Below the pieces are notes generated by a model. The model worked only from the letters and a program-made list of their open reading frames with translations, made no database searches and had not been told where the DNA came from. Made by a program: the position numbers and the translations under genes. From the NCBI GenBank assembly GCA_035556555.1, contig DATMES010000034.1, positions 1-35,787 of the forward strand: a stretch of DNA of 35,787 bases. The letters are read 5' to 3'. Of this stretch, positions 9,817 to 24,656 are shown one piece after another; the first letter of the stretch is position 1, and every line of letters begins with the position of its first letter. Source of the DNA: Frankiaceae bacterium. Lineage in GTDB: Bacteria; Actinomycetota; Actinomycetes; BP-191.

Positions 9817-10484
9817 CGTCTCGGCAGGCCGATGAGCACCTCGGTGCCGTCGGCGAAGTGCGTGATCGGCTGTGCTGTCGGCTGCGTGAGCCCCGCTGCC
9901 GTGAGCAGGCCGGTGTCGAGGGCTTTGACCGTGGCGCGACGCAGCTGCCACGGCGGGTGATGCGCCTGCATCCGTACTGGTCTCCCGGCGATGACCGTCC
10001 AGAGCCGGAAGCGCGCGGTCAGCCAGTGGTCGAAGTCGGTCAGCTCGCCGGGCGCGTACGGGGCGCCGGCCTCGACCTCGGTGACGTTGCGGGCCTTCCG
10101 GGGTCCTGGCCAGCGGCGCGTGCTGACGTAGCGGACGACGTCGCCGCAGCGGCCCAGACGCATGCGGGACCAGCAGTAGCGGATGTTCAGCGCGCGGCCG
10201 CCGAGGACGGCGGGCAGCCGCGACGCGTCGAGCGAGAAGAACCACACGCCCGTCACGCCGCCGGGGCCGGTGACGTAGGTGCGGACGTTCGTCTCGGGGA
10301 ACCGCGACAGCCACGGCAGCGGCGGGATGCCGGGCGCGCGGACGGTCATGTGGAACGGCACGAGCCCGACCCACGCCCGGCCTTCGTAGGTCTCCACGGT
10401 CAGCCCGTCAGGGAGGAGCGCCTGAACCTCGGCGGGGTCGTACGGCCAGTGCAGGAACGTCAGCTGCTCCCACCGGTGCACCAT
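9813..10484 (-). CDS. DUF2071 (YqjF-like) family protein
   Basis: 223 residues from the ATG at 10484. Family hallmarks: WEQLTFLHWPYDPAEVQALL at the N-terminus, LTVETYEGRAWVGLVPF, then the MTVRAPGIPPLPWLSRFPETN region and WFFSLDA. In-frame residues upstream of the ATG (PIDPPPRPAL) also look like the family, but only a CTG, not ATG/GTG/TTG, lies before the disA stop, so the start is uncertain by about 15 residues. Biochemical function of the family is unknown. It follows disA on the same strand after 44 bases and may be cotranscribed. It converges with cheW, sharing a CTAG stop palindrome. Confidence 0.82.
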   Translation of the reverse strand: MVHRWEQLTFLHWPYDPAEVQALLPDGLTVETYEGRAWVGLVPFHMTVRAPGIPPLPWLSRFPETNVRTYVTGPGGVTGVWFFSLDASRLPAVLGGRALNIRYCWSRMRLGRCGDVVRYVSTRRWPGPRKARNVTEVEAGAPYAPGELTDFDHWLTARFRLWTVIAGRPVRMQAHHPPWQLRRATVKALDTGLLTAAGLTQPTAQPITHFADGTEVLIGLPRR

Positions 10485-10528
10485 CAGCGCCGGGCGCGGC
10501 GGCGGGTCGATCGGGGCGGCGGGGACCG

Positions 10529-11608
10529 TCAGACGTACCGCTCCAGGATCGACGACTCGGCGAGGCGCGACAGGCCCTCGCGGACGGTCTTGGCGCGCGT
10601 CTCGCCGACGCCCTCGACGACCTGGAGGTCGTCCACGCCGGCGGCGAGCAGCTTCTGCAGGCTGGCGAAGTGCTCGACCAGGCGGTCGACGACGAGGCGC
10701 GGCAGACGCGGGACCTTGGCGAGCAGGCGGTACCCGCGCGGCGACAGCGGCGCCTCCATCGCGTCGGCCCCGGCGGCGAAGCCGATGACCCGCGCGACCG
10801 CGGTGACGTCGAGCATGTCCTCGGGGCTGAGCGCGTCGAGGTCGGTGAGGATGTCCTCGACCGAACGCGCGCGGCGTCCCGTGGGCGCGTAATCGCGCAC
10901 CACGAGCTCGCGGTCGGTCTCGACGCCGGCCATCAGCTCGTCGAGCTGGAGGTTGAGCAGGCGGCCGTCGGCGCCGAGCTCGACGACGTACCCCTCGATC
11001 TCCCCGGCGATCCGGCGCACCATCTCGATGCGCTGGCTCACGGTGACGACGTCGCGGACCGTCACGAGGTCCTCGACCTCGAGCGCGGACAGCGTGCCGG
11101 CCACTTCGTCGAGGCGCAGCTTGTACCGCTCCAGCGTCGCGAGCGCCTGGTTGGCGCGGGAGAGGATCGCGGCGCCGTTGTCGAGCACGTGGCGCTTGGA
11201 GTCGACGTACAGCGCGATGATCTTCATCGACTGGCTGACGGAGATCACCGGGTAGCCGCACTGCTTCGCCACACGCTCGGCGGTGCGGTGGCGCGTGCCG
11301 GACTCCTCGGTCGCGATCGTCGGGTCGGGGACGAGGTGGACCGCGGCGCGGACGATCTTCGTCATGTCGTCGGAGAGGACGACCGCGCCGTCCATCTTCG
11401 CCAGCTCGCGCAGGCGCGTGGACGAGAAGTCCACGTCCAGCACGAACCCGCCCGTGCAGAGCGACTCGACGAGCTTGTTGTAGCCGCACACGATGAGCGC
11501 GCCGGTGTTGCCGCGCAGGATCCGCTCGAGGCCGTCGCGCAACGGCGTGCCGGGGGCGACCGCGGCGAGGGTGGCGAGCATCTGCTCGTCACGGTCGGGG
11601 GTGGCCAC
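10529..11608 (-). CDS. disA: DNA integrity scanning diadenylate cyclase DisA
   Basis: 359 residues. Condenses two ATP to cyclic di-AMP and scans DNA for lesions or branched structures. The DAC domain carries the catalytic DGA motif ([11 protein letters not shown]) and RHRTAER, preceded by [11 protein letters not shown] helical linker follows, and then a C-terminal helix-hairpin-helix domain ([16 protein letters not shown]) that binds DNA. Start choice: the GTG at 11608 has the strong ribosome-binding site AGAGGAG on the minus strand and gives the usual family length (about 358-360). An in-frame ATG at 11707 would add 33 Pro/Val-rich residues that look non-coding. It lies downstream of radA on the same strand, the usual actinobacterial pairing. 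Confidence 0.95.
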
Positions 11609-11876
11609 CGTGCTCCTCTGGTCGGGCGGACCGTCGCCGGCGGTGCCGACGGCGACCAGTGCCGTACGTGGCGGCACCGGGCTGTCCGGTAAGGGTACGG
11701 CGCTCATCGTCCGGTATGACGCCTTCGCGTGCCGGAAGGTTGCACGCGTCGCGTGTTTGTGCGCGTTTCGTCATCTCCCGCGGGGGACCGGGGCGGGGCG
11801 CGTACGGCGCCGCTGCGCGCGCGACGCGAGGTCGCGGCACGACGGCGTACGGCGTACGGCGTCCGGGCGGTCCAGG
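11609..11876 (-). other. radA-disA intergenic region (268 bases)
   Basis: No gene supported. The segment contains a short tandem array near 11840-11865 in which GGCGTAC units repeat about three times, plus several other GTAC-centred words. Toward disA it contains the AGAGGAG ribosome-binding site (about 11613-11620). No clear promoter hexamer pair or terminator hairpin could be assigned, so it is open whether disA is cotranscribed with radA. Confidence 0.5.
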
Positions 11877-13232
11877 TCAGCGGGCGGCGGCGAGCGCGCG
11901 GCCGAGGGTGTCCACCTCCGTCACGGTCAGGCCGGCGGGCGTTGCGGCGCCACTCCCGGCGGGGACGAGTGCCCGCGTGAACCCGAGCCGTGCCGCCTCC
12001 GCGAGGCGGCGGCCCACCCCGCTGACGCGGCGGACGTCACCGGCGAGCCCCACCTCCCCGATGGCGACGAGGCCGGAGGGTCCGGCGAGGTTGGTCTTGG
12101 CGCCCGCGAGCGCCAGGGCGAGGGCCAGGTCGACCGCCGGCTCGGTGAGGCGTACGCCGCCCACCGTGGAGGCGTAGACGTCGTAGTCCTTGAGGACGGT
12201 GCCGGCGCGGCGTTCGAGGACGGCGAGCAGCATCGCGAGGCGGCTGGTGTCGAGGCCGCTGGCCGTACGGCGCGGATAGCCCGCGGTGGACGGCACGGCG
12301 AGGGCCTGGACCTCGGCGACGAGCGGGCGGCGGCCCTCGAGCGAGATCGTCACGCAGGTGCCGGGCACCGGCTCGGAGGCGTGGGAGAGGAACAGCCCGG
12401 ACGGGTCGGGCAGGCCGACGATGCCGGCGTCGCCGAGCTCGAAGCAGCCGACCTCGTCGGCGGGGCCGAACCGGTTCTTCACGGCGCGGACGAGGCGCAG
12501 TGAGGCGTGCCGGTCGCCCTCGAAGTGCAGGACGACGTCGACGAGATGCTCGAGGACGCGCGGGCCGGCGATGGTGCCGTCCTTGGTGACGTGGCCGACG
12601 AGGACGGTCGCGATGTTGCGCTCCTTGGCGAGCTTGATGAGCGCGGCGGCGCAGTCGCGCACCTGCGTCACGCTGCCCGCGCCGCCGTCCACGTCGGGGT
12701 GGGCGACGGTCTGGATGGAGTCGACGACGAGCAGCGTGGGCTCCACGGTGTCCACGTGCCCGAACACCGCGGAGAGGTCGGTCTCCGCCGCGAGGTAGAG
12801 GTCGGGCGAGAGGGCGGCGGTGCGGCCCGCGCGGAGACGTACCTGCGAGGTGGACTCCTCGCCCGACACGATGAGCGCGCGCGAGCCTGGCCGCGCCCAG
12901 CGGTGGGCGACCTCCAGGAGCAGCGTCGACTTGCCGACGCCCGGCTCCCCGGCGAGCAGGCAGACGGCGCCGGGGACGAGCCCGCCGCCGAGGACGCGGT
13001 CGAGCTCGGCGACGCCGGTGGGGCGTACGGCAGCGGCCGTGACGTCGATGTCACCGATGGGCAGCGCCGGCGCGGAGACCGGCCCCGCGCGGACCGCGCG
13101 CACGACCGCCGCGCCGACCTCGGACACAGACCCCCACGCCTGGCACTCGGGGCAGCGGCCGACCCAGCGCGTGCTCTGCTGGCCGCACTCGGTGCAGCGG
13201 TAGGCCGGCTTGGCGGCGGTCTTCGAAGCCAT
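11877..13232 (-). CDS. radA: DNA repair protein RadA (Sms)
   Basis: 451 residues. RecA-related ATPase helicase that processes recombination intermediates and stalled forks. N-terminal zinc finger with Cys13, Cys16, Cys27, Cys30 (CTECG ... CPEC). RecA-like core with Walker A GEPGVGKST and the RadA-specific KNRFG motif (VKNRFGPADE). The C-terminal Lon-protease-like domain contains GGVRLTEPAVDLALALAL and GEVGLAGDVRRV. The ATG at 13232 fits the family start (MASK...YRCTECG). The open frame further upstream is translated intergenic DNA. TACCGT lies 7 nt before the ATG, implying a leaderless transcript. Confidence 0.96.
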   Translation of the reverse strand: MASKTAAKPAYRCTECGQQSTRWVGRCPECQAWGSVSEVGAAVVRAVRAGPVSAPALPIGDIDVTAAAVRPTGVAELDRVLGGGLVPGAVCLLAGEPGVGKSTLLLEVAHRWARPGSRALIVSGEESTSQVRLRAGRTAALSPDLYLAAETDLSAVFGHVDTVEPTLLVVDSIQTVAHPDVDGGAGSVTQVRDCAAALIKLAKERNIATVLVGHVTKDGTIAGPRVLEHLVDVVLHFEGDRHASLRLVRAVKNRFGPADEVGCFELGDAGIVGLPDPSGLFLSHASEPVPGTCVTISLEGRRPLVAEVQALAVPSTAGYPRRTASGLDTSRLAMLLAVLERRAGTVLKDYDVYASTVGGVRLTEPAVDLALALALAGAKTNLAGPSGLVAIGEVGLAGDVRRVSGVGRRLAEAARLGFTRALVPAGSGAATPAGLTVTEVDTLGRALAAAR

Positions 13233-13362: not shown

Positions 13363-14175
13363 TCAGGCGAGGGAGGCGCCGTTGGCGAGGAGCAAGGCCA
13401 CCGCGAGAACGGCGGCGGCGAGGGTGAGCGTCCAGGACGCGCGTTCGCGGCCGAGGCGCGCGGTGACGACGACACCGAGCACCGCGGCCACCTGGACGGC
13501 CGCCAGGGCCAGCGCGAGGGGCGACGGGGCGCCTGGCGGGGCGGCGGCGAGCACGAGGCCGGCCCCCACTAGCAGGACCGCGCCGGTGACGAGCGAGGGA
13601 GTACGCCCGATGCGCTGCGGGAGCCCACGGACGCCGAGGCGTACGTCGTCGGCCTGGTCGGGCAGCGTGTTGACGAAGTGCGCGCCGACGCCGAGCAGCG
13701 CGGCGGCGGCGTACGACCACCACGGCGGCGCCGGTCGTCCGGGCAGCCCGAGCGTCACGAACCACGGCAGCGAGCCGAACGAGAACGCGTACGGCACCGG
13801 CGACGCCACCGTCCGCTTGAGGAACGCGTTGTAGAGCCCGGCGCTCGCCACCGCCGCGAGGTGCACGAGGCCGGCGACCGCGCCGTTGAGGAGGGAGAAC
13901 GGCACGCAGAGGGCGACGGCGAGCAACGCCGCCACCCCCACGGCCCGGCGCGAGACTGACCCCGCCGCGACGGGCTTGTCCGTACGCCCCGCCGCCACGT
14001 CGCGCGCGGAGTCGAGCCAGTCGTTGCTCCACCCCACGAACAGCTGCCCGGTCAGCATCGCGAGGCAGAGCCAGACCGCGGACCCGCCGCGCCCCGCGGC
14101 GACGCCGAGCGCGCTCGTCATCGCCGTCACCGCGACCGCGGGCTGGATGTGCGCGGCGCGTGCCAAGGCGATCAC
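13363..14175 (-). CDS. UbiA-family membrane prenyltransferase
   Basis: 270 residues, integral membrane, with about eight hydrophobic segments. UbiA enzymes transfer an isoprenoid chain to an aromatic or sugar acceptor. The first Asp-rich motif is N51-D52-x2-D55-x3-D59 (NDWLDSARD). The second, in NTLPDQADDVRLG, places Asp173, 176 and 177. Both are needed to bind the Mg-diphosphate of the donor. The GTG at 14175 has CAGACT 7 nt upstream, a leaderless-type promoter; longer upstream reading is non-coding. It is divergent from the UbiG-like methyltransferase, with 38 bases between start codons. Acceptor and donor are unknown. The adjacent type III polyketide synthase suggests a polyketide phenol or quinone as acceptor, which is inference. 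MenA or another housekeeping role is less favoured by context. Confidence 0.87.
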   Translation of the reverse strand: MIALARAAHIQPAVAVTAMTSALGVAAGRGGSAVWLCLAMLTGQLFVGWSNDWLDSARDVAAGRTDKPVAAGSVSRRAVGVAALLAVALCVPFSLLNGAVAGLVHLAAVASAGLYNAFLKRTVASPVPYAFSFGSLPWFVTLGLPGRPAPPWWSYAAAALLGVGAHFVNTLPDQADDVRLGVRGLPQRIGRTPSLVTGAVLLVGAGLVLAAAPPGAPSPLALALAAVQVAAVLGVVVTARLGRERASWTLTLAAAVLAVALLLANGASLA

Positions 14176-14182
14176 GCGGGGC

Positions 14183-14207
14183 AGTCTGCCCGCGTTTGGG
14201 ACAGGAT
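14183..14207. promoter_or_regulatory. Divergent leaderless promoters (UbiA / UbiG-like)
   Basis: CAGACT on the minus strand (14188 to 14183) sits 7 nt before the UbiA GTG. CAGGAT on the plus strand (14202-14207) sits 6 nt before the methyltransferase GTG at 14214. The two -10-like elements face away from each other 13 bases apart, so the genes likely share one regulatory region. Confidence 0.5.
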
Positions 14208-14213
14208 GCTGGT

Positions 14214-14903
14214 GTGCCGGTCCTGACGCGCCCGAGGAACGACCCCGGGCAGTACGACGACCTCGCCGCCGAGTGGTGGCGCCCCCGGGGGGCGTTCGAG
14301 CCGCTGCACTGGCTGGCCAAGGCGCGCGCGGCCCTGATCCCCGCCGGCACCGGCGTCCTCCTCGACGTCGCCTGCGGCGGCGGCCTGCTCGCACCGCACG
14401 TCAAGACCTACCGGCACGTCGGCGTCGACATCGGCGAGTCCGCCGTGCGCATCGCGCGCGAGCACGGCATCGCGACGGCGCGCGGCGACGTCCTTCGCCT
14501 GCCGATAGCCGACGAGGTCGCCGACGTCGTCGTCGCGGGCGAGGTGTTCGAGCACGTGTACGACCTCGACGGCATGGTCGCCGAGATCACCCGCGTCCTG
14601 AAGCCCGGCGGCACGCTCGTCTGCGACACGCTCGCCGACACGTGGCTCTCCCGCTTCGTCATGGTGACGATCGCCGAACGCCTGCCGTTCGTGCCCGCCG
14701 GCATCCACGACCCCGCGCTCTTCGTCGACCCGACAAGGCTCCAAACCATCTGCAAGAAGAACGGCATCGACCTCAAGGTGCGCGGCCTCCGCCCCGCGAT
14801 CTCCGACGCGCTGCTGCACCGCGTCCGCCTCCGCGACGAGGTCCGCATGCTCCCCACGAGGTGGACCGGCGTCGTCTACCAGGGCCTGGGGGTGAAGCGG
14901 TGA
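14214..14903 (+). CDS. UbiG-like SAM-dependent O-methyltransferase
   Basis: 229 residues. Class I methyltransferase with motif I LLDVACGGGLLAP, post-I VGVDIGESAV, VVVAGEVFEHVYD and LKPGGTLVCDTLAD. The N-terminus (QYDDLAAEWWRP ... FEPLHWLAKAR) closely follows the UbiG/COQ3 pattern of enzymes that O-methylate catechol-type intermediates of ubiquinone synthesis. Actinobacteria make menaquinone, not ubiquinone, so a true UbiG role is unlikely. Methylation of a hydroxy-aromatic product of the neighbouring type III PKS is a reasonable inference. The GTG start has CAGGAT 6 nt upstream. Its stop overlaps the next start by GTGA. Confidence 0.85.
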   Translation: MPVLTRPRNDPGQYDDLAAEWWRPRGAFEPLHWLAKARAALIPAGTGVLLDVACGGGLLAPHVKTYRHVGVDIGESAVRIAREHGIATARGDVLRLPIADEVADVVVAGEVFEHVYDLDGMVAEITRVLKPGGTLVCDTLADTWLSRFVMVTIAERLPFVPAGIHDPALFVDPTRLQTICKKNGIDLKVRGLRPAISDALLHRVRLRDEVRMLPTRWTGVVYQGLGVKR

Positions 14904-16027
14904 CGTACGAGTCGTTCCGCGAACGCGCCGAGCAGCACGACCGCGAGGCGTCGTTCCCCAAGGCCGACTTCGACGACCTCCGCGCCGCCGGCCTGCTCGG
15001 GCTCATGGTCCCCGAACGCCTGGGGGGCAAGGGCTCCGGCTTCGCGGGTTACGCCCAGGTGGCGTACGACATCGCGCAGGGCAGCCCCGCGACGGCGCTG
15101 TTGTTCAACATGCACTGCTCGGTCACCGGCGCCCTCGCCGCGACGCCCGACGAGCTCGCCAGGGCGCTCGGCGCGCCGGACGAGTTCTTCGCGTTCCGCG
15201 ACCGCGTGCTGGCGGACGCGGCGAACGGCGCGCTCTACATGGTCGCGGGCAGCGAGCGCGGCGCGGGCAGCCGCTTCTCCGCGATGACGACGACGTACGA
15301 GCCCGAGGGTGACGGCTGGCGCATCCGCGGCTCGAAGACGTTCTGCAGCGGCGCGGGGCACGCCGACGCGTACCTCGTCGTGGCGCGCCGCGACGACAAG
15401 GTGAGCCAGTTCCTCGTCCCCGCCTCCGACGGGCTGACCATCGAGCAGACGTGGGACCCGCTCGGCATGCGCGCGACCGCGAGCAACGACCTGCACGTCG
15501 ACGTCCGCGTCCCGCGCGACACGCTGCTCGGCGGCGTCGAGGGACTCGGCCTGCTGCTCGCGCGCGTCAGCCCGCAGTGGCTGGTGGCGTCGTACGCCGC
15601 CGTCTACGCCGGCACCGCGCGCGCCGCCATCACGGAGGCGGCCACCCAGCTGACCGAACGCGGCCTGGCCGGCCTGCCCCACGTGCGAGCACGTCTCGGC
15701 AGGGCGGACGCCGCCGCCGAGGGTGCCTGGCTCGCGGTCCGGGATGCGGCGCGCCTCGTCGACGAGAAGCCGGGCGACCCCGAGACGAACAAGGCGGTCT
15801 ACCGCGCCAAGCTGCTCGCCGGCGACACCGCGCACGAGGTCACGGCGAGCATGCTCGAAGCGTGCGGTACGAGCGCCACGAGGCGGGGTAACCCGCTGGA
15901 ACGGCTGTTCCGCGACGCGCGGTGCGGAGCGTTGCAGCCGGCCACGAGCGACGTCTGCGCCGACTGGCTCGGCGTGGCCGCGCTGGGGCTGGACCCGGAC
16001 GAGGAGACGGCGGTGCCGAGATGGTGA
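14900..16027 (+). CDS. Acyl-CoA dehydrogenase-like flavoprotein
   Basis: 375 residues from the GTG that overlaps the methyltransferase stop (GTGA). Domain order fits the ACAD fold: N-terminal helices (FDDLRAAGLLGLMVPERLGG), a beta domain (SERGAGSRF, GWRIRGSKTFCSGAGHADAYLV, VPRDTLLGG) and a C-terminal helical domain with the RLFRDARCGALQ segment. In classical ACADs the catalytic Glu lies in an EGT-type motif just after this RDAR helix; here the stretch reads LQPATSDV and no Glu is seen. Such variants often act as flavin-dependent monooxygenases or oxidases or on other substrates, so simple beta-oxidation is doubtful. The context suggests tailoring or starter supply for the polyketide pathway. 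The apparent open frame upstream of 14900 is out-of-frame read-through. Confidence 0.83.
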   Translation: MTYESFRERAEQHDREASFPKADFDDLRAAGLLGLMVPERLGGKGSGFAGYAQVAYDIAQGSPATALLFNMHCSVTGALAATPDELARALGAPDEFFAFRDRVLADAANGALYMVAGSERGAGSRFSAMTTTYEPEGDGWRIRGSKTFCSGAGHADAYLVVARRDDKVSQFLVPASDGLTIEQTWDPLGMRATASNDLHVDVRVPRDTLLGGVEGLGLLLARVSPQWLVASYAAVYAGTARAAITEAATQLTERGLAGLPHVRARLGRADAAAEGAWLAVRDAARLVDEKPGDPETNKAVYRAKLLAGDTAHEVTASMLEACGTSATRRGNPLERLFRDARCGALQPATSDVCADWLGVAALGLDPDEETAVPRW

Positions 16028-17062
16028 GAACGGCGCGGATCGCGGGGGTCGCGACGGCGGTCCCCGCCCCGATGGACCAGCAGGCGTTGTGGGACGGCTT
16101 CTTCTCGAAGCACTACGACGGCTCCCGGCTGGCCGAGCGCGTCTGGGCGTCGTCGGGCGTCGTCACCCGGCACGGCGTGGCTGACCCGCTGACCGAGGAC
16201 GTCAGCCAGTGGGGCACGGGCGCGCGCATGCGGCGGTACGTCACCGAGGCGCTGCCGCTCGGCAAGGACGCCGTGGCCGGCGCGCTCGCGAAGGCGGGTG
16301 TCAGCGCCGAGGAGGTCGGCCTGTTCGCGGTCGTCTCCTGCACCGGCTACGCCACCCCCGGGCTCGACATCCTGCTGGCCCGCGACCTCGGCATGCCGGC
16401 GGACGTGCAACGGCTCTTCGTCGGCCACATGGGCTGCTACGCGGCCATTCCCGGTCTCTCGACGGTCGCCGACGCGGTCGTCGCGCGCGGCCTCACGGCG
16501 GTGCTGCTCTGCGTCGAGCTGACGAGTCTTCATGTGCAGCCCGCGACCGACGAGGCGCAGCAGATGGTGGCGCACGCCCTGTTCTCCGACGCCGCGACGG
16601 CGGTGGTCCTCACGCCGCACAGCAACGGCCTCGAGGTCGTCGACACCATCGCGCGCCGACGTCGCGCACCAGTCGTACATGACGTGGGACGTCACCGACC
16701 TCGGCTTCCGGATGGGGCTCTCGCCGCAGGTGCCGGACATCCTGCAGCGCCACGTCCGCAGCGTCACCGAGGACCTGCTCGCGAAGCACGACCTGACCCT
16801 TGCCGACGTCAAAGCCTGGGCCATCCACCCGGGCGGGCCGCGCATCCTCGACGTCTGCCGCGACGAGCTCGGCCTCGCCGAGTCCGACGTCGCGGCGTCG
16901 AGGGACACGCTGCGCGACTACGGCAACTGCTCCTCGCCCACCGTCCTCATCGCGCTCGACGAGGTGCGGCGCCGTACGCCGCTCGCGTCCGGCGACCATG
17001 TCGTGGCGCTCGCGTTCGGGCCGGGCCTGACGCTGTACGGCACGCTGCTCCGCCAGGCGTGA
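16021..17062 (+). pseudogene. Type III polyketide synthase, frameshifted in this sequence
   Basis: Chalcone/stilbene-synthase-like homodimeric ketosynthase that extends an acyl-CoA with malonyl-CoA and cyclises the product. Frame 1 (16021 to about 16653, about 211 residues) has VSCTGYATPGLDILLARDLG and the catalytic Cys139 in GHMGCYAAI. The rest of the protein (DVAHQSYMTWDVTDLGFRM onward) lies in the +1 frame from about 16655 to 17062. It includes catalytic His (AIHPGG, codon 16826-16828) and Asn (YGNCSSPT, codon 16925-16927). Joined, it gives about 346 residues, the usual family size, and all three catalytic residues are kept. The break is within GCGCGCC near 16651-16657: either one extra base or two missing. 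Frame 1 stays open past the break and merges by chance with the downstream CPBP gene. A sequencing error or recent mutation is likelier than programmed shifting. GTG 16024 is an alternative start. Confidence 0.85.
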
Positions 17063-17799
17063 CGCTTCGGCAGGCGGTCGCGCTCGCCGCGATCGCGGTG
17101 CTCGCGTACCTCTTCGGCGTCGTCCTGCCGCGCCGTACCGAACGACTCATCGAGGCTCTCCGCGAACGCATCCGGCTCGACCCGACCGTGCGGTGGGCGT
17201 TCTACCAGCGGTACCTCCGGCTGACCGTCGTCGTCGTGGCGGGTTTCGCCGTGACGGTCGCCCTCGGGGGTGAGGGAGCGGGGTCCGCGGGCGTCGGCTG
17301 GCCGCCGTACGCGAGCAGGCAGTTCCTGCCGGGGCTCGTCGCAGGCCTCGCCGCGGCGGCGCTCGTGCTGGCGCTGGCGTACGCCTACGGCAGCAGACGC
17401 GACCCCGGCGCGCTCGACACGGCGCAGCAGTACGCGCGCGTGGAGTTCCTCGTCCCGCACGCCCAGCGGGAGCGCACGATCTGGCCGCTCGTCTGCGTCG
17501 CGATCGCGGTCATCGAGGAGTGCGTCTATCGAGGACTCTTCGTCCTCTACGCCGCCACGCTGCTCGGCATCGACCCGTGGTGGCTGGTGCTGCCGGTGTC
17601 GGTGCTGTTCGGTCTCGGCCACCGGTACCAGGGCTGGCTCGGCGTCGTCGGGACGGGCGGCCTCGGGCTGATGTTCGGCATCGTCACCGTCGCGACGGGC
17701 AGCCTCTGGCCGGCGATCGCGCTGCACGCGGCGTTCGACGTCCGGCTGATGTTCGTCAGGCCACCAGCGCCCGCAGCGCCGGAGCCAGCCGGAGACTAG
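17059..17799 (+). CDS. CPBP-family intramembrane metalloprotease-like protein
   Basis: 246 residues from the GTG that overlaps the PKS stop (GTGA). Multi-pass membrane protein with hydrophobic segments near residues 5-20, 56-75, 95-115, 140-155, 170-190 and 200-230. It has the CPBP/Rce1-like motifs in order: EExxxR (IEECVYRGLF), FxxxxH (LFGLGHRYQG) and HxxxD (LHAAFDVR). Family members are putative prenyl-protein or peptide-processing glutamic proteases, and many have unknown substrates. It is the last gene of the divergent operon. Its 3' end overlaps the convergent thioredoxin-like gene by 44 bases. Whether it has any role in the polyketide pathway is unknown; self-protection or membrane insertion of lipid products are guesses only. 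Confidence 0.83.
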   Translation: MTLRQAVALAAIAVLAYLFGVVLPRRTERLIEALRERIRLDPTVRWAFYQRYLRLTVVVVAGFAVTVALGGEGAGSAGVGWPPYASRQFLPGLVAGLAAAALVLALAYAYGSRRDPGALDTAQQYARVEFLVPHAQRERTIWPLVCVAIAVIEECVYRGLFVLYAATLLGIDPWWLVLPVSVLFGLGHRYQGWLGVVGTGGLGLMFGIVTVATGSLWPAIALHAAFDVRLMFVRPPAPAAPEPAGD

Positions 17800-18295
17800 G
17801 CGCGATCGCGGCGACGACGGAGTGCACGACGCCGTCGCTGCGCACGAGGACGAGCGCGGCGTCCGTCCGGAGCCGGTACGCCGCCGCCAGCGCACCCTCC
17901 GGGTCGGCGAAGCCGCCCGCCTCGCCGCCCGACTGCGCGGCCAGCGACGCCGCGAACGCGAACGACGCACCGGCCTCGACCACGTAGGTCGCGAGCCGCA
18001 GTGGCGCCGTCTCCGCGACGACCTGGCGGATCGCCGCGACGCAGTCGCAGCCGGTGCGGACGAGCATGACGACCGCGGGGCGCAGCCGGCGCGCGGGCGT
18101 GACGCCGAGGCGGCCGCGCAGCGGCACGTCGGGCAGCAGCCCGCCGACGGCGCCGGGGGTGACGACGGGCGAGGCGAGCGGGCCGGGCAACGGCCGGGCC
18201 GACGGCGTAGGCGACGTACGCAGGAACACCAGCGCCGCCACCGCGACGCCCAGCACGACGACGACCGCGAGCCAGGCGCGCGAGCGTTCGGTCAC
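17756..18295 (-). CDS. Membrane-anchored thioredoxin-like protein with CxC
   Basis: 179 residues from the GTG that overlaps the transglutaminase stop (GTGA). One N-terminal transmembrane helix (about 7-25) precedes a Pro-rich linker. A compact alpha/beta domain follows (about 55-179): a strand RPAVVMLVRTGCDC ends in Cys83-x-Cys85 at the position of a thioredoxin CxxC, then LRLATYVVEAG and DAALVLVRSDGVVHSVV. The fold is inferred as thioredoxin/AhpC-like. The domain should face outside the cell. It is the last gene of the ATP-grasp/alpha-E/transglutaminase operon and its coding end overlaps the CPBP gene tail to tail by 44 bases. I know of no set function for this family; a redox or sensor role in the operon is inference. 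Confidence 0.68.
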   Translation of the reverse strand: MTERSRAWLAVVVVLGVAVAALVFLRTSPTPSARPLPGPLASPVVTPGAVGGLLPDVPLRGRLGVTPARRLRPAVVMLVRTGCDCVAAIRQVVAETAPLRLATYVVEAGASFAFAASLAAQSGGEAGGFADPEGALAAAYRLRTDAALVLVRSDGVVHSVVAAIAPSLRLAPALRALVA

Positions 18296-19221
18296 TGCTG
18301 CTGCTGGACCTGCGCGTGCAGGGGCCGTACGTCGCGTGGCGGCACCGCGACCTCCTCCGGCACCGGCTTCGACGGCGCGACCATCGTCACCGACACGTCG
18401 AGGCTGCTCGCGCCGCCGCCGGCGTGCAGGCCCTTGATCGGCGCGATGTCGCCGTAGTCGCGGCCGACCGCGACGACGACGTGCCGCTCGTCGGCGAGGC
18501 AGGCGTTCGTCGGGTCGGCCTCGATCCAGCCGAAGCCCGGCACGAACGCCTCCACCCACGCGTGCGACTCGACGTCGATCGCGACGTCGGGCGCGGGCTC
18601 CGGGTCGGCGAAGAAGTAGCCGCTGACGTAGCGCGCGGGGACGCCGAGGTCGCGCAGCGTCGAGATGAGCAGGTGCGCGAAGTCCTGGCAGACGCCGCGC
18701 CCGCGTTCGAGCAGGTCGTCGACGGTGGAGGTCACGTACGACGCGCCGGTCGCGTACTCGAAACGCCGGTGCACCTCGTTCGACGCGCCCATGACCAGCT
18801 CGACGACGGACTTCGGCTGGACCACGCGGCGTACGTGCTGCGCGAACGTGTCGAGGTGGTCGCCGCCGGCCGCCAGCGGAGACACGTGCAGCCACTCGGC
18901 ATGCGCGTCGCGGAAGAGAGGGTCGTCCAGCATCGCGAGGTCGCCCGCGTCGCGCGGCACGTCGCGGCGGGGCGCGCTGACGACGACCGACTCGCCGACG
19001 ATGGAGAGCGAGTCGTGCGGCGGCAGGATGTTGAACGCGTGCACGCGGGTGCCGAAGTGGTCGCGGTACTCCGTCGTCCGCGCCTTCGGCGTCAGGGTCA
19101 GGCGGAACGACAGGAGGTTCTGCCGCTCGTCGTTGCGCGGCGTGATGCGCAGCTCGTTGAACGACGCGCTGGCCGGCTGCTCGTAGCGGAACGTCGTCGT
19201 GTGCCGGATGCGGACCCTCAC
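18292..19221 (-). CDS. Transglutaminase-like cysteine peptidase/transferase
   Basis: 309 residues from the GTG overlapping the alpha-E stop (GTGA). The N-terminal region (about 1-140, RIRHTTTFRYEQPASASFNELRI) is the bacterial transglutaminase N domain. The core has the papain-like triad: Cys178 (RGVCQDFAH), His220 (ESHAWVEAF) and Asp236 (EADPTN). Such enzymes hydrolyse or form amide bonds. No signal peptide is seen, so it probably acts in the cytoplasm. The C-terminus ends in a short Gln run. Neighbours alpha-E and ATP-grasp form a widely conserved trio predicted from comparative genomics to build and cleave or attach a peptide-like product or tag; the actual substrate is not established. Upstream open frame beyond 19221 is another reading of the alpha-E gene. 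Confidence 0.9.
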   Translation of the reverse strand: MRVRIRHTTTFRYEQPASASFNELRITPRNDERQNLLSFRLTLTPKARTTEYRDHFGTRVHAFNILPPHDSLSIVGESVVVSAPRRDVPRDAGDLAMLDDPLFRDAHAEWLHVSPLAAGGDHLDTFAQHVRRVVQPKSVVELVMGASNEVHRRFEYATGASYVTSTVDDLLERGRGVCQDFAHLLISTLRDLGVPARYVSGYFFADPEPAPDVAIDVESHAWVEAFVPGFGWIEADPTNACLADERHVVVAVGRDYGDIAPIKGLHAGGGASSLDVSVTMVAPSKPVPEEVAVPPRDVRPLHAQVQQQQ

Positions 19222-20159
19222 GAGACCGCCTTCCCCTGGGTCGCGCCGCGCGCGAAGCACTCGGCGACCAGCCCCTCGTGGACCTCGGCGCAGGCCGCGG
19301 TGACGCGCGCGACGAAGGCAGGGATGCCCTCCTCGAACACCTCGCCCACCTGCCGGAACTCCAGCTCGGCGCGCAGCCGTCCCGCCGTACGCCGCGACGG
19401 CGAGTCGAGCCGCGGCGCCGTCACGCGGACGACGCACTCCTCGACGTGCTTCGCGCTGTAGAGCGCGCTGCGAGGGAAGTCGCGGTCGAGCAGCAGGAAC
19501 TCCGCCACACGGCGCGGCTCGACGACCGTGCGGTAGGTCTTGCGGTACGCCTCGTACGCCGACAGCGACCGCAGCAGCACCGTCCACCCGAACGTCTCCG
19601 CCGGCGTCGCGCGTTGAGTCGCGGGGATGTGCAGCAGGCCGGACCGGACGTCGAGGACGCGGCACGTGAACACGACCCGCTCGACGTACCTCCCGATCGT
19701 CAGCCAGTCCCAGCCCTCCTCGCGCAGCATGGTGCCGTCGGCCGTGCCCGCAAAGAGGAAGGCCCGCGCCTTCATCGACGAGAAGAACCGGTGCGCCCCA
19801 GCGCCTTCGAGGTCGCCCGCGCCGGTCGCGGCGACCGCGAGGTGCCACGTGTTGAGCGCCTCCCACATCTCGCTCGTGACGGCGTCGCGGACGGTCCGCG
19901 CGGACTCGCGCGCGGTGCGTACGCACGACGCGATCGACTCGGGCGCGTCGCGGTCGAGGGCGTACGACGACAGCACTTCCGCGCTGCTCCGCGGCGCGCC
20001 GCCGAGGATCGCGGCGATCGACTCGCGGCCCGCCTCGTCGTCGCCGCCGCGGCCTTCGAGGGACGCGCGGTGCGCGACGTCGAGGAGTCTTGCGGTGTCC
20101 TCGGCGCGCTCGGTGTAGCGCCCGACCCAGTACAGCGACTCGGCGATCCTCGACAGCAT
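19218..20159 (-). CDS. Alpha-E domain protein (DUF403)
   Basis: 313 residues, predicted almost entirely helical. The family signature opens the protein: MLSRIAESLYWVGRYTERAEDTARLLDV, in which paired Arg/Glu residues are invariant. Later conserved stretches are FLFAGTADGTM and LTIGRYVERV (about 145-175) and LLLDRDFPRSALYS (about 235-250). The biochemical role is unknown; by association it is thought to assist the ATP-grasp ligase. Its ATG directly follows the ATP-grasp stop (TAGATG, no gap) and its stop overlaps the transglutaminase GTG. The three genes are therefore a single translationally linked unit. Confidence 0.92.
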   Translation of the reverse strand: MLSRIAESLYWVGRYTERAEDTARLLDVAHRASLEGRGGDDEAGRESIAAILGGAPRSSAEVLSSYALDRDAPESIASCVRTARESARTVRDAVTSEMWEALNTWHLAVAATGAGDLEGAGAHRFFSSMKARAFLFAGTADGTMLREEGWDWLTIGRYVERVVFTCRVLDVRSGLLHIPATQRATPAETFGWTVLLRSLSAYEAYRKTYRTVVEPRRVAEFLLLDRDFPRSALYSAKHVEECVVRVTAPRLDSPSRRTAGRLRAELEFRQVGEVFEEGIPAFVARVTAACAEVHEGLVAECFARGATQGKAVS

Positions 20160-21620
20160 CTAGTCGTCCCCTTCGAGGACCCACGTGTCCTTGGAGCCGC
20201 CGCCCTGCGACGAGTTCACAACGAGCGAGCCCTCCGGCAGCGCGACCCGCGTGAGCCCGCCGGGGACGATCGTGATGTCCTCGCCCATGAGCACGAACGG
20301 CCGCAGGTCGACGTGCCGGGGCCGGAACGCGCCGTCGATCATCGTGGGGTGCCGGGACAGCGCGATCGTCTCCTGCGCGATGTACGCGCGCGGCTTGGCG
20401 AGCAGCCGCCGCCGGCAGTCGGCGAGCTCGCTCTCGGTGGCGGTGGGGCCGATCGTCATGCCGTACCCGCCGCTGTCGGAGACGGTCTTGACGACGAGGC
20501 TCGGCAGGTTGCGCAGGACGTGGTCGAGCTGGTCGCGCTCGCCGGGGAGGTACGTCGGCACCTGGTCGAGCAGCGGCTTCTCGCCGAGGTAGTACTCGAC
20601 CATCGCGGGGACGTACGCGTAGACCGCCTTGTCGTCGGCGATGCCGGTGCCGACGGCGTTGGCGAGGGCGACGTTGCCAGCCCTGGCGGCGAGCATGAGC
20701 CCCGTCACGCCGAGGACCGAGTCGGGCCTGAAGGCGAGCGGGTCGAGGTAGTCGTCGTCCACCCGCCGGTACACGACGTCGACGCGGCGGCGGCCGCTCG
20801 TCGTCTTCATGTAGACGACCGCGTCGTCGACGAACAGGTCGTCGCCCTGCACGATCTCCACGCCCATCTGCCGGGCGAGGAACGTGTGCTCGAAGTACGC
20901 GCTGTTGTACGACCCCGGCGTCAGCAGCACGACGGTCGGGTCACCGTCGCCGCGCGGCGCGATGTGCCGCAGCACGTCGAGCAGCGCCTGCGGGTAGTGG
21001 TCGACGGGGCGTACGCGGTGCCGGTTGAACAGCTCGGGGAAGCCGCGGACCATCGACGCGCGGTTCTCGAGGACGTACGACACGCCGCTCGGCGTCCGGC
21101 AGTTGTCCTCCAGCACGAGCCACCGGCCGGTGTCGTCGCGGATCAGGTCCACGCCGGAGACGTGCGTCCAGATGCCCTGCGGCGGGTGCAGCCCCGTGGC
21201 CTGGCGGGTGAAGTGGCGGCCGGTGACGACGAGCTCGTTCGGGACGATCCCGTCGCGGACGATGGCGCGGGTCGAGTAGACGTCGGCGAGGAACGCGTTG
21301 AGCGCGGTCACCCGCTGCACGAGGCCAGCCGACAGCGCCTCCCACTCCAGCGCGGTCACCAGGCGGGGGACCAGGTCGAGGGGGAACGTCCGCTCCACGT
21401 CGTCGCCGTCCGAGTAGACGGTGAACGTGATGCCCTGCGCCCGCAGCGACAGCTCGATCGCCTCGGCCTTGGCCGCCAGCTCCCGCGGGTCGAGGCCCGC
21501 GAGGTACGTCACCAGGCGGCGGTACGCCGGCCGCACCCGCCCGTCGGCGTCGAAGCACTCGTCGTGCATGCGGGCGTCCAGCGGGTAGTCGCTGAACCCC
21601 CCGCCCGCCTCGACGTTCAT
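20160..21620 (-). CDS. Circularly permuted ATP-grasp protein
   Basis: 486 residues. Family of circularly permuted ATP-grasp ligases (DUF404/DUF407-type, COG2308) predicted to form amide bonds between carboxylates and amines using ATP. Diagnostic stretches: VSGVDLIRDDTGRWLVLEDN, then the conserved NCRTPSGVSYVLENR, PGSYNSAYFEH, the metal/ATP segment VVKTVSDSGGYGM, AYIAQETIALSRHP, and the C-terminal SSQGGGSKDTWVL. The ATG at 21620 has TACGCT 7 nt upstream, a leaderless-type promoter. It is the first gene of a four-gene minus operon (ATP-grasp, alpha-E, transglutaminase-like, thioredoxin-like) that is divergent from carD. Substrate unknown. Confidence 0.92.
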   Translation of the reverse strand: MNVEAGGGFSDYPLDARMHDECFDADGRVRPAYRRLVTYLAGLDPRELAAKAEAIELSLRAQGITFTVYSDGDDVERTFPLDLVPRLVTALEWEALSAGLVQRVTALNAFLADVYSTRAIVRDGIVPNELVVTGRHFTRQATGLHPPQGIWTHVSGVDLIRDDTGRWLVLEDNCRTPSGVSYVLENRASMVRGFPELFNRHRVRPVDHYPQALLDVLRHIAPRGDGDPTVVLLTPGSYNSAYFEHTFLARQMGVEIVQGDDLFVDDAVVYMKTTSGRRRVDVVYRRVDDDYLDPLAFRPDSVLGVTGLMLAARAGNVALANAVGTGIADDKAVYAYVPAMVEYYLGEKPLLDQVPTYLPGERDQLDHVLRNLPSLVVKTVSDSGGYGMTIGPTATESELADCRRRLLAKPRAYIAQETIALSRHPTMIDGAFRPRHVDLRPFVLMGEDITIVPGGLTRVALPEGSLVVNSSQGGGSKDTWVLEGDD

Positions 21621-21719: not shown

Positions 21720-22202
21720 ATGTCTTTCAAGGTCGGCGAGACTGTCGTGTACCCGCACCACGGTGCGGCGCTCATCGAGGCGATCGAGAAGCGCACCGTC
21801 GGAGGGGTCGAGCGGGTGTACCTCGTGCTGAAGGTCGCTCAGGGCGACCTCACCGTGAAGGTGCCCGCGGACAACGCTGAGATCGTCGGTGTCCGTGACG
21901 TCGTCGGGCAGGAGGGCCTCGAGAAGGTCTTCGACGTGCTCCGCGCGCCGCACACCGAGGAGCCGACCAACTGGTCGCGCCGCTACAAGGCCAACCTCGA
22001 GAAGCTCGCCTCCGGCGACGTCAACAAGGTCGCCGAGGTCGTCCGCGACCTCTGGCGCCGCGACCGCGAGCGCGGTCTGTCGGCGGGCGAGAAGCGGATG
22101 CTCTCCAAGGCGCGGCAGATCCTCGTGAGTGAGCTGGCTCTCGCCGAGGGCACCAACGAGGACAAGGCCGAAGCAGTCCTCGACGAGGTCCTGGCTTCCT
22201 GA
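21720..22202 (+). CDS. carD: CarD-family transcriptional regulator
   Basis: 160 residues. Binds RNA polymerase beta subunit and promoter DNA to stabilise the open complex; essential in mycobacteria. N-terminal RNAP-interaction Tudor-like domain (about 1-55: [20 protein letters not shown]). C-terminal helical DNA-binding domain (about 65-160) with the conserved tryptophan in NWSRRYKAN and [20 protein letters not shown]. Length equals the family norm (about 160). It has its own extended -10 promoter and heads the carD / PIN-TRAM / ispD / ispF block on the plus strand. A large inverted repeat follows it. Confidence 0.97.
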
Positions 22203-22351: not shown

Positions 22352-23479
22352 TTGTCCGAACGCCGACCGGCTAGCGGTGTGGTCGAGGCGCTGCGGCTGC
22401 TCTCCGTCGTCTTCTTCGCGGGCGTCGGCTTCGAGGTCGCGCGCATCGTCGCGCCCTCGGGCGACGAGATCCTCGGGACGTTCAACGGCGTCGCGGTCGG
22501 CGTCATCGTCGGCGCGGGCCTGGGCTACGTGCTCGGCGGCGTCCTCGGCCGTACGACGGTCACCACCGTCGACCGCGTCGAGGTCGGCCTCCGTGAGACC
22601 TCGGCCGAGTCGCTCGTAGCGGGCGCCATCGGGACGGTCTGCGGCGTCTTGCTCGCGGCGGGGGTGGGCTGGCCGCTGTTCCTGATCCCGGAGCCGTACA
22701 TCGCGTTCTCGCTGTTCGGCTTCGTGCTGGTGCTGTTCGGGTTCCTCGGGCAGCGCATCGGCCAGGCCAAGCGCGACGGCGTCCTCGCGATCTTCGGTGC
22801 CCGCGCGGGCGTCGCGCCGCGGGAGAGCGCCGCGTCCGCGCTGCCCAAGCTCGTGGACTCCTCGGTGGCGATCGACGGGCGGGTGCTCGACGTCGTACGC
22901 GCGGGCTTCCTGCACGGCTCGATGCTCGTCTGCCGACCCGTGCTCGACGAGCTGCAGGGGCTCGCCGATGCGGGCGACGACCTGCGCCGCGCGCGCGGCC
23001 GCCGCGGGCTGGAGCTGCTGGAGACGCTGCGCCGCGAGCCAGGGGTCGAGCTGGAGGTCGTGGACGACGAGGCGCCCGGCGTACCCGAGGTCGACGCCAA
23101 GCTCGTGCGCATCGCGCTCGACCGCAACGCCGCCCTCCTCACCCTCGACACCAACCTCGCCAAGGCCGCCGCGCTGGCCGGCGTCCGCGTCCTCAACCTG
23201 CACGCGCTCGGCCTCGCGCTGCGTCCGCCGGTGCAGGCCGGCGACGAGGTGACGGTGCTGCTCATCAAGCCGGGCAAGGAGGCGGGCCAGGCCGTCGGCT
23301 ACCTCGACGACGGCACGATGGTCGTCGCCGAACGCAGCCGGGCCAAGGTCGGCAGCGAGGCGCAGGTCCTCGTCACGAGCGTTCTCACGACCGCGAACGG
23401 CCGCATGGTCTTCGCCCGCCCCGCCGGCGAGCCCGCCGAGGTCGCCGCGCGTCCGGGGCCGAGACGGCGGGCCGAGTGA
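22352..23479 (+). CDS. PIN/TRAM-domain membrane protein (YacL-like)
   Basis: 375 residues from a TTG start supported by GAGGAGG (22338-22344) 7 nt upstream. Four hydrophobic segments fill residues about 12-30, 47-65, 88-106 and 112-135. A cytoplasmic PIN nuclease-like domain follows: acidic residues in LVDSSVAIDGRVLD, PVLDELQGLAD and LLTLDTNLAKAA, the expected Mg-ligand positions. A C-terminal TRAM domain (about 295-360: VQAGDEVTVLLIKPGKEAGQ) usually binds RNA. The same architecture occurs in Bacillus YacL, also next to ispD. The RNA target is unknown. Its stop overlaps the ispD start by GTGA. Confidence 0.93.
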   Translation: MSERRPASGVVEALRLLSVVFFAGVGFEVARIVAPSGDEILGTFNGVAVGVIVGAGLGYVLGGVLGRTTVTTVDRVEVGLRETSAESLVAGAIGTVCGVLLAAGVGWPLFLIPEPYIAFSLFGFVLVLFGFLGQRIGQAKRDGVLAIFGARAGVAPRESAASALPKLVDSSVAIDGRVLDVVRAGFLHGSMLVCRPVLDELQGLADAGDDLRRARGRRGLELLETLRREPGVELEVVDDEAPGVPEVDAKLVRIALDRNAALLTLDTNLAKAAALAGVRVLNLHALGLALRPPVQAGDEVTVLLIKPGKEAGQAVGYLDDGTMVVAERSRAKVGSEAQVLVTSVLTTANGRMVFARPAGEPAEVAARPGPRRRAE

Positions 23480-24177
23480 GGGTCGCGGCGATCGTCCCCG
23501 CGGCGGGACGCGGCGAACGCCTCGGCCCCGGCGCCCCCAAGGCGCTGCGGCTGCTCGGCGGCGTACCCATGCTCGTCCACTCCGTACGAGCGCTCGCGCG
23601 GGCCCGGCTCGTCGACGTCGTCGTGGTGGCGGCGCCGCCGGGGGACGAGGCCGAGGTACGCGGCGTCCTCGACACCTATCAGGCGCCCACCGAGGTCCGC
23701 GTCGTGACGGGCGGGGAGACGCGGCAGGACTCCGTACGGCTCGCGCTCGAGTCGCTGGACCCCGACGTGGACGTGGTGCTCGTGCACGACGCCGCGCGGC
23801 CGCTGGCGCCGAGCCAGCTCGTCGACGACGTCGTGCAGGCCGTCGCGCGCGGCGCTGAGGCCGTCATCCCCGCGCTGCCCGTCGCGGACACCGTGAAGCG
23901 CGTCGAGGACGGGCGGGTGGTGGAGACCGTACGGCGCGAGGGCCTGTACGCCGTCCAGACCCCTCAGGGCTTCACGCGCGAGCTGCTCACCAAGGCGCAC
24001 GACGCGGCGGTCATCGACGGCTTCGCGGGCACCGACGACGCCTCGCTGGCCGAGCGGATCGGGGCGACCGTGGCGGTCGTACCCGGGCACCCCGAAGCCG
24101 CGAAGGTGACCCGCCCGCACGACCTCGCCACCGCCGAGCACGTCCTCCAGGAACGCCTCGCCCGCCGTGAGCACTGA
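23476..24177 (+). CDS. ispD: 2-C-methyl-D-erythritol 4-phosphate cytidylyltransferase IspD
   Basis: 233 residues. Third step of the MEP isoprenoid pathway: CTP plus MEP gives CDP-ME and diphosphate. Nucleotide-binding motif [17 protein letters not shown] at the N-terminus, the [13 protein letters not shown] signature (about 76-88), [11 protein letters not shown] and [10 protein letters not shown]. The GTG start overlaps the PIN/TRAM stop. It is followed by ispF across a small tandem duplication. Supplies precursors for quinones, undecaprenyl phosphate and possibly the prenyl donor of the nearby UbiA enzyme. Confidence 0.96.
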
Positions 24178-24192
24178 CGTTGAGCACTGACC
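24167..24192 (+). repeat. 13-bp tandem duplication at the ispD-ispF junction
   Basis: GTGAGCACTGACG (24167-24179) is followed directly by TTGAGCACTGACC (24180-24192); 11 of 13 positions agree. The first copy encodes the end of IspD including its TGA, and the second encodes the first codons of IspF. Confidence 0.8.
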
Positions 24193-24656
24193 TCCGGACG
24201 GGCATCGGGGTCGACGTGCACCCGTACGACGCCTCGCGCCCGCTGTGGCTGGCCGGACTCGAGTGGCCGGGCGAGCCGGGACTGGCCGGGCACTCCGACG
24301 GCGACGTCGCGGCGCACGCCTGCTGCGACGCGCTGCTGTCGGCGGCGGGGCTGGGGGACCTCGGGTCGCAGTACGGCACCAGCGCCCCCGAGTGGGCAGG
24401 CGCGGCCGGGGCCGCCTTGCTGGCCGAGACTGTACGCCGCGTCGCCGAGGCGGGCTGGACCGTCGTCAACGTCGCCGTGCAGGTCGTCGGTGAACGCCCC
24501 AAGGTCGGCCCGCGTCGTACGGAGGCCGAGTCGGTGCTGAGCGAGGCGGCCGGCGCGCCGGTGTCCGTGAGCGCGACGACGACGGACGGGCTCGGCTTCA
24601 CGGGCAGGGGCGAGGGGCTGGCCGCGGTCGCGACGGCCCTGCTGACCCGAGACTGA
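24180..24656 (+). CDS. ispF: 2-C-methyl-D-erythritol 2,4-cyclodiphosphate synthase IspF
   Basis: 158 residues. Converts CDP-ME 2-phosphate to MEcPP in the MEP pathway; trimeric zinc enzyme. Metal ligands Asp12 and His14 in GVDVHPY and His46 in [13 protein letters not shown]. Other signatures are [19 protein letters not shown] and [15 protein letters not shown]. The start is TTG at 24180, with no clear ribosome-binding site, placed by the tandem duplication. Reinitiation after IspD, whose stop is 2 bases upstream, is likely. The gene ends 27 bases before a long inverted repeat. Confidence 0.95.

Follow-up and report, generated by a model that had tools for sequence, protein, structure and literature searches.

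Given the grouping of a type III polyketide synthase (PKS) with a methyltransferase, a flavoprotein and a membrane prenyltransferase in the DNA analyzed here (a 35,787-nucleotide stretch, contig DATMES010000034.1 of a Frankiaceae bacterium, hereafter the window), we asked which pathway these genes would serve and whether a characterized counterpart exists. A preliminary description had proposed a phenolic-lipid pathway built from these four enzymes and could name no characterized cluster with exactly this set. The proposed pathway is supported in part, by a match to published loci, and the same four-gene set is found in the agq cluster of Actinoplanes missouriensis and in the loseolamycin locus of Micromonospora endolithica. 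The locus is very probably an agq/loseolamycin-type phenolic-lipid pathway, in which an alkylresorcinol-forming PKS would act together with a hydroxylating flavoprotein, an O-methylating methyltransferase and an O-prenylating UbiA-family enzyme, with the adjoining CPBP protease uninvolved. The previously unnamed cluster is thereby assigned to a type that is widespread, ordinary and already characterized, and the range of that type is extended to the present actinobacterial lineage.

Gene layout of the locus

The cluster is composed of a UbiA-family membrane prenyltransferase gene in an AgqD-like position (13363-14181, reverse strand; Pfam UbiA, E 1.8e-20), divergent from a forward-strand operon that encodes a UbiG-like SAM-dependent methyltransferase (MT; 14214-14903; Pfam Methyltransf_11, E 9.7e-20), an ACAD-fold flavoprotein (14900-16027; Pfam ACAD domains), the type III PKS (16021-17062), which is split over two frames, and a CPBP/Rce1-like intramembrane protease (17059-17799; Pfam Rce1-like, E 3.1e-17). 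The matches of all of these proteins exceed the Pfam gathering scores. Along the operon the genes overlap by 4 bases (MT/ACAD), 7 bases (ACAD/PKS) and 4 bases (PKS/CPBP), which can be read directly from the sequence and agrees with the 4- to 7-base overlaps first described. The divergent UbiA/MT pair had been described as sharing 38 bases, an overlap that needs far-upstream start codons. Starts set by homology to the two same-genus relatives (L032 and L033), GTG 14181 for UbiA and GTG 14214 for MT, leave a 32-bp gap instead, and a 33-bp gap is found at the same place in both relatives; the pair most likely diverges without overlap.

The cluster is flanked on one side by RadA (11877-13232, reverse strand), which holds the same position in 38 of the 42 full-set loci among the matches listed, and DisA (10529-11707, reverse strand), and on the other by CarD (21720-22202, forward strand), with IspD (23476-24177) and IspF (24180-24656) downstream of CarD. 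Between the cluster and CarD, a transglutaminase, a circularly permuted ATP-grasp protein and a third gene, which we take to be alpha-E-like, are grouped at 18292-21620 on the reverse strand. A small protein encoded at 17756-18316 (reverse strand) has no Pfam match; its position is kept in both same-genus relatives and in a few Frankiales MAGs.

Comparison with the agq and loseolamycin loci

In the loseolamycin locus of M. endolithica (losA; MIBiG BGC0002362), the published gene order is DisA-RadA-hypothetical-UbiA-MT-ACAD-losA (the type III PKS)-two hypotheticals-CarD-IspD-IspF (Lasch et al. 2020, PMC7587189). The likeness to the window thus extends from DisA to IspF, and the link to losA is made by this gene order and by Micromonospora orthologues; the two loci differ in that two hypotheticals are listed where the window has the CPBP gene and the transglutaminase/alpha-E/ATP-grasp trio. 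In A. missouriensis, agqA is described as a type III PKS with agqB-D adjoining, the products being alkyl-O-dihydrogeranyl-methoxyhydroquinones (Awakawa 2011, as relayed in PMC7692728), and a second summary has the agq alkylresorcinols prenylated and hydroxylated (PMC10896814). The genome of A. missouriensis 431 has one type III PKS only, placed within the order disA-radA-UbiA-MT-ACAD-PKS-carD, and the four proteins of this locus are 54-66% identical to the four cluster proteins of the window. Because this is the sole type III PKS of the genome, stands in that order and shows that identity, we infer that the agq cluster is the A. missouriensis disA-radA/carD locus. The window shares with it the UbiA-MT-ACAD-PKS order between RadA and CarD and differs by the extra CPBP gene after the PKS and by a frameshift within the PKS.

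The window carries the four genes in the agq/loseolamycin order, with UbiA divergent, and carries them in the same chromosomal place, between disA-radA and carD-ispD, as M. endolithica and, with respect to disA, radA and carD, A. missouriensis. Clusters of the agq type have also been reported by other groups from genome mining of Phytohabitans, Micromonospora and Salinispora, according to summaries that include PMC7692728.

Looser likenesses are seen to other phenolic-lipid clusters. The srsABC cluster of Streptomyces griseus includes a methyltransferase; its hydroxylase is of a different type, and it is not known to contain a UbiA. Its likeness to the window lies in a phenolic lipid that is made by a type III PKS and oxidized to a quinone (PMC10896814). 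The hierridin cluster hidABC and planctomycetal alkylresorcinol operons likewise combine a methyltransferase, an oxidoreductase and an alkylresorcinol type III PKS in one operon, but no UbiA is described for them and their oxidoreductase is FAD-dependent instead of ACAD-fold (PMC10896814).

The type III PKS and its frameshift

The PKS belongs to the agq/loseolamycin clade, with its frame broken by 2 bp. The N-terminal part (16021-16655, forward strand, frame 1; Chal_sti_synt_N, E 4.1e-16), supported also by an alignment of orthologues, is 83% and 80% identical to the intact orthologues of the two same-genus relatives and 62-63% identical to that of A. missouriensis. It contains the active-site cysteine in the motif GHMGCYA, while the C-terminal part (16656-17062, forward strand, frame 2; Chal_sti_synt_C, E 8.8e-23) contributes the histidine (HPGG) and asparagine (GNCSS), so that the Cys-His-Asn triad is complete across the two frames. 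The preliminary description had overlooked the frameshift. When its DNA is aligned to the genes of both same-genus relatives, which are intact, the window proves to be 2 bases short at 16651-16656; frame 1 runs up to about 16655 and frame 2 thereafter, and this deletion accounts for the split. Programmed frameshifting was rejected, since the relatives' genes are intact.

Against the two same-genus relatives, pN/pS is 0.34 and 0.31 before the deletion and 0.34 and 0.47 after it, and the relatives compared with each other give 0.39. These ratios indicate that purifying selection has acted on the C-terminal part much as it has on the N-terminal one, so the PKS would be either freshly broken or mis-assembled. 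That the inactivation is real and recent, leaving the pathway dead in this organism, is possible though on balance doubtful: the deletion stands against both same-genus relatives and the genome holds no other type III PKS that might take over, but the assembly is a draft of 71 contigs, the pN/pS of 0.34-0.47 past the deletion is taken to be the same as the 0.31-0.39 of the intact part and the relatives, and the remaining pathway genes are open.

The flavoprotein and the methyltransferase

The flavoprotein had been called ACAD-like. This stands for its fold and Pfam domains, but not for the catalytic residue: with the register set by alignment to human SCAD, the column of the ACAD catalytic glutamate (MCAD E376; YEG in SCAD) is occupied by proline (Pro347) in 67 of 67 aligned sequences, which makes the dehydrogenase reaction unlikely. 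The protein also scores far below the cut-offs of the NCBIfam dehydrogenase equivalogs, and among sequences in the PDB it best matches 5gj7 and 5z8t, the latter titled as a flavin-containing monooxygenase. A true acyl-CoA dehydrogenase that introduces a double bond into the acyl starter or the side chain, with no hydroxylation of the ring, would be consistent with the presence of all Pfam ACAD domains and with the predicted structure, in which fold searches score acyl-CoA dehydrogenases and DszC-type monooxygenases alike; given the proline, the equivalog scores and the PDB matches, we regard it as very unlikely. The flavoprotein is probably a flavin-dependent ring hydroxylase. No homologue of it was found on plasmids in PLSDB at E<=1e-40.

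The MT scores 92.5 bits against the NCBIfam UbiG equivalog, below the cut-off of 102.95, and is thus UbiG-like without being assigned as UbiG.

The UbiA-family prenyltransferase

The two Asp-rich motifs of the UbiA protein, NDxxDxxxD (N53-D61) and DxxxD (D175-D179), are kept in 95% or more of the 68 sequences aligned. The genome encodes two other UbiA-family proteins, both on other contigs: a haem O synthase (CtaB) adjoining CtaA, and an MqnP-type protein adjoining UbiD/UbiX-like genes, the name of which is borderline at 419.9 bits against an MqnP cut-off of 420. The window protein resembles these two only faintly (E 0.003-0.009) and is 46-74% identical to PKS-linked UbiAs. It passes no NCBIfam housekeeping equivalog cut-off (UbiA, MenA, MqnP or CtaB), the best score being 41 bits against 269. 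The neighbourhood of the cluster is itself housekeeping (DisA, RadA, CarD, IspD), which might suggest that the enzyme is a housekeeping prenyltransferase for quinone or haem synthesis and happens to adjoin the polyketide gene; with separate CtaB and MqnP-type enzymes beside their own partner genes, and with the similarities and scores just given, this reading is hardly tenable. The expectation that the enzyme falls outside the housekeeping quinone and haem clades was borne out, and a MenA-like or haem-type identity was ruled out by the paralogues elsewhere in the genome together with the NCBIfam scores. A search for solved structures close to the window protein returned none at E<=1. The MqnP-type enzyme (L132, at C59:64791-65558 of the same genome), with its UbiD- and UbiX-like neighbours, suggests menaquinone synthesis by the futalosine route.

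Predicted pathway and product

The type III PKS would add three malonyl-CoA units to a fatty acyl-CoA starter and cyclize the chain to a 5-alkylresorcinol, as shown for the Micromonospora locus. The ACAD-fold flavoprotein, acting as a flavin-dependent monooxygenase, is predicted to hydroxylate the ring, the UbiG-like MT to O-methylate a ring hydroxyl, and the UbiA-family enzyme to transfer a prenyl group of geranyl size onto a ring oxygen, the last in keeping with the published agq product class; the three ring modifications are given here without implying their order. CPBP would stand outside these steps. A flavin reductase, which a class D flavin monooxygenase of the DszC/HpaB-like kind would need, and a reductase for the dihydrogeranyl group are both absent from the locus.

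In M. endolithica, activation of losA yielded 5-alkylresorcinols, the loseolamycins, in Streptomyces albus; the study activated losA only and obtained no methylated or prenylated product (PMC7587189). The pathway might by analogy end at a simpler product, a methylated or plain alkylresorcinol, with UbiA and the flavoprotein acting on another, linked substrate. The 24-kb fragment on which losA was activated also carried UbiA, MT and ACAD and gave unmodified alkylresorcinols only, and many related loci are without ACAD, UbiA or both. However, the new promoter was placed on losA only, which may have left UbiA, MT and ACAD unexpressed, the same four genes in A. missouriensis are linked to a prenylated methoxyhydroquinone, and the four genes co-diverge (see below). 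We consider the simpler product unlikely and favor the hydroxylated, methylated and prenylated alkylresorcinol.

The CPBP protease

The preliminary description had grouped the CPBP gene with the pathway. It is carried by none of the 80 related loci listed in named genomes and by none of 14 relatives, an absence that rules out its membership of the pathway. Despite its overlap with the PKS stop, the gene appears from this comparison to be a local neighbour outside the conserved module. In the same-genus relative L032, the corresponding place (10365-12359) holds a long open frame, about 660 aa in length, and the spot is thus variable. The annotation of the locus is corrected with regard to CPBP, which is no member, to the “acyl-CoA dehydrogenase,” which is unlikely to be one, and to the PKS, which is frameshifted in the assembly.

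Distribution, co-divergence and possible role

A PKS of this clade is found in 14 of 118 relative genomes (E < 1e-60), in one of them twice, and two of the 14 are of the same genus. At least 80 related loci are found in named genomes, among them Micromonospora, Actinoplanes, Dactylosporangium, Geodermatophilaceae, Frankiales and other MAGs. The gene set was counted in the 67 loci, among the matches listed, with enough upstream DNA. All four genes occur in the same order and orientation in 42 of these 67, with both RadA and CarD also detected in 38 of the 42. ACAD alone is missing in 8 of the 67 (e.g. Dactylosporangium), UbiA alone in 6, and the PKS occurs with MT only, outside the RadA/CarD context, in 10 (e.g. 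Geodermatophilaceae). The UbiA-MT-ACAD-PKS arrangement, recurring in 42 of 67 long loci listed, is far beyond chance. The gene set thus recurs together, and the pattern named beforehand as speaking against the pathway, orthologues scattered among genomes apart from each other, is not seen.

Across the 42 full loci among the matches listed, UbiA, MT and ACAD each diverge in step with the PKS (correlation of pairwise distances, r 0.88-0.93), and for all four proteins the distances also correlate with the DisA and RadA distances (r 0.64-0.87). Because the four genes correlate with one another and with these housekeeping neighbours, the pattern is consistent with mainly vertical inheritance of the cluster as one unit.

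PKS orthologues are present in 330 of 355 Micromonosporaceae genomes. Together with the fixed place beside disA-radA and carD-ispD and the co-divergence with housekeeping genes, this raises the suggestion that the prenylated alkylhydroquinone belongs to the core lipids of the membrane, where it would serve in structure or in redox chemistry, instead of being a dispensable secondary metabolite, a reading that we put forward tentatively and hold to be rather improbable. The pathway has been filed as secondary metabolism, yet in the Micromonosporaceae it is near-universal and fixed in place, and the reason for this is the point of wider interest. In the Geodermatophilaceae Klenkia and Geodermatophilus (L084, L090, L100, L105, L114 and L125), the set is reduced to MT and PKS; UbiA and ACAD are missing, and the pair lies away from the RadA/CarD context.
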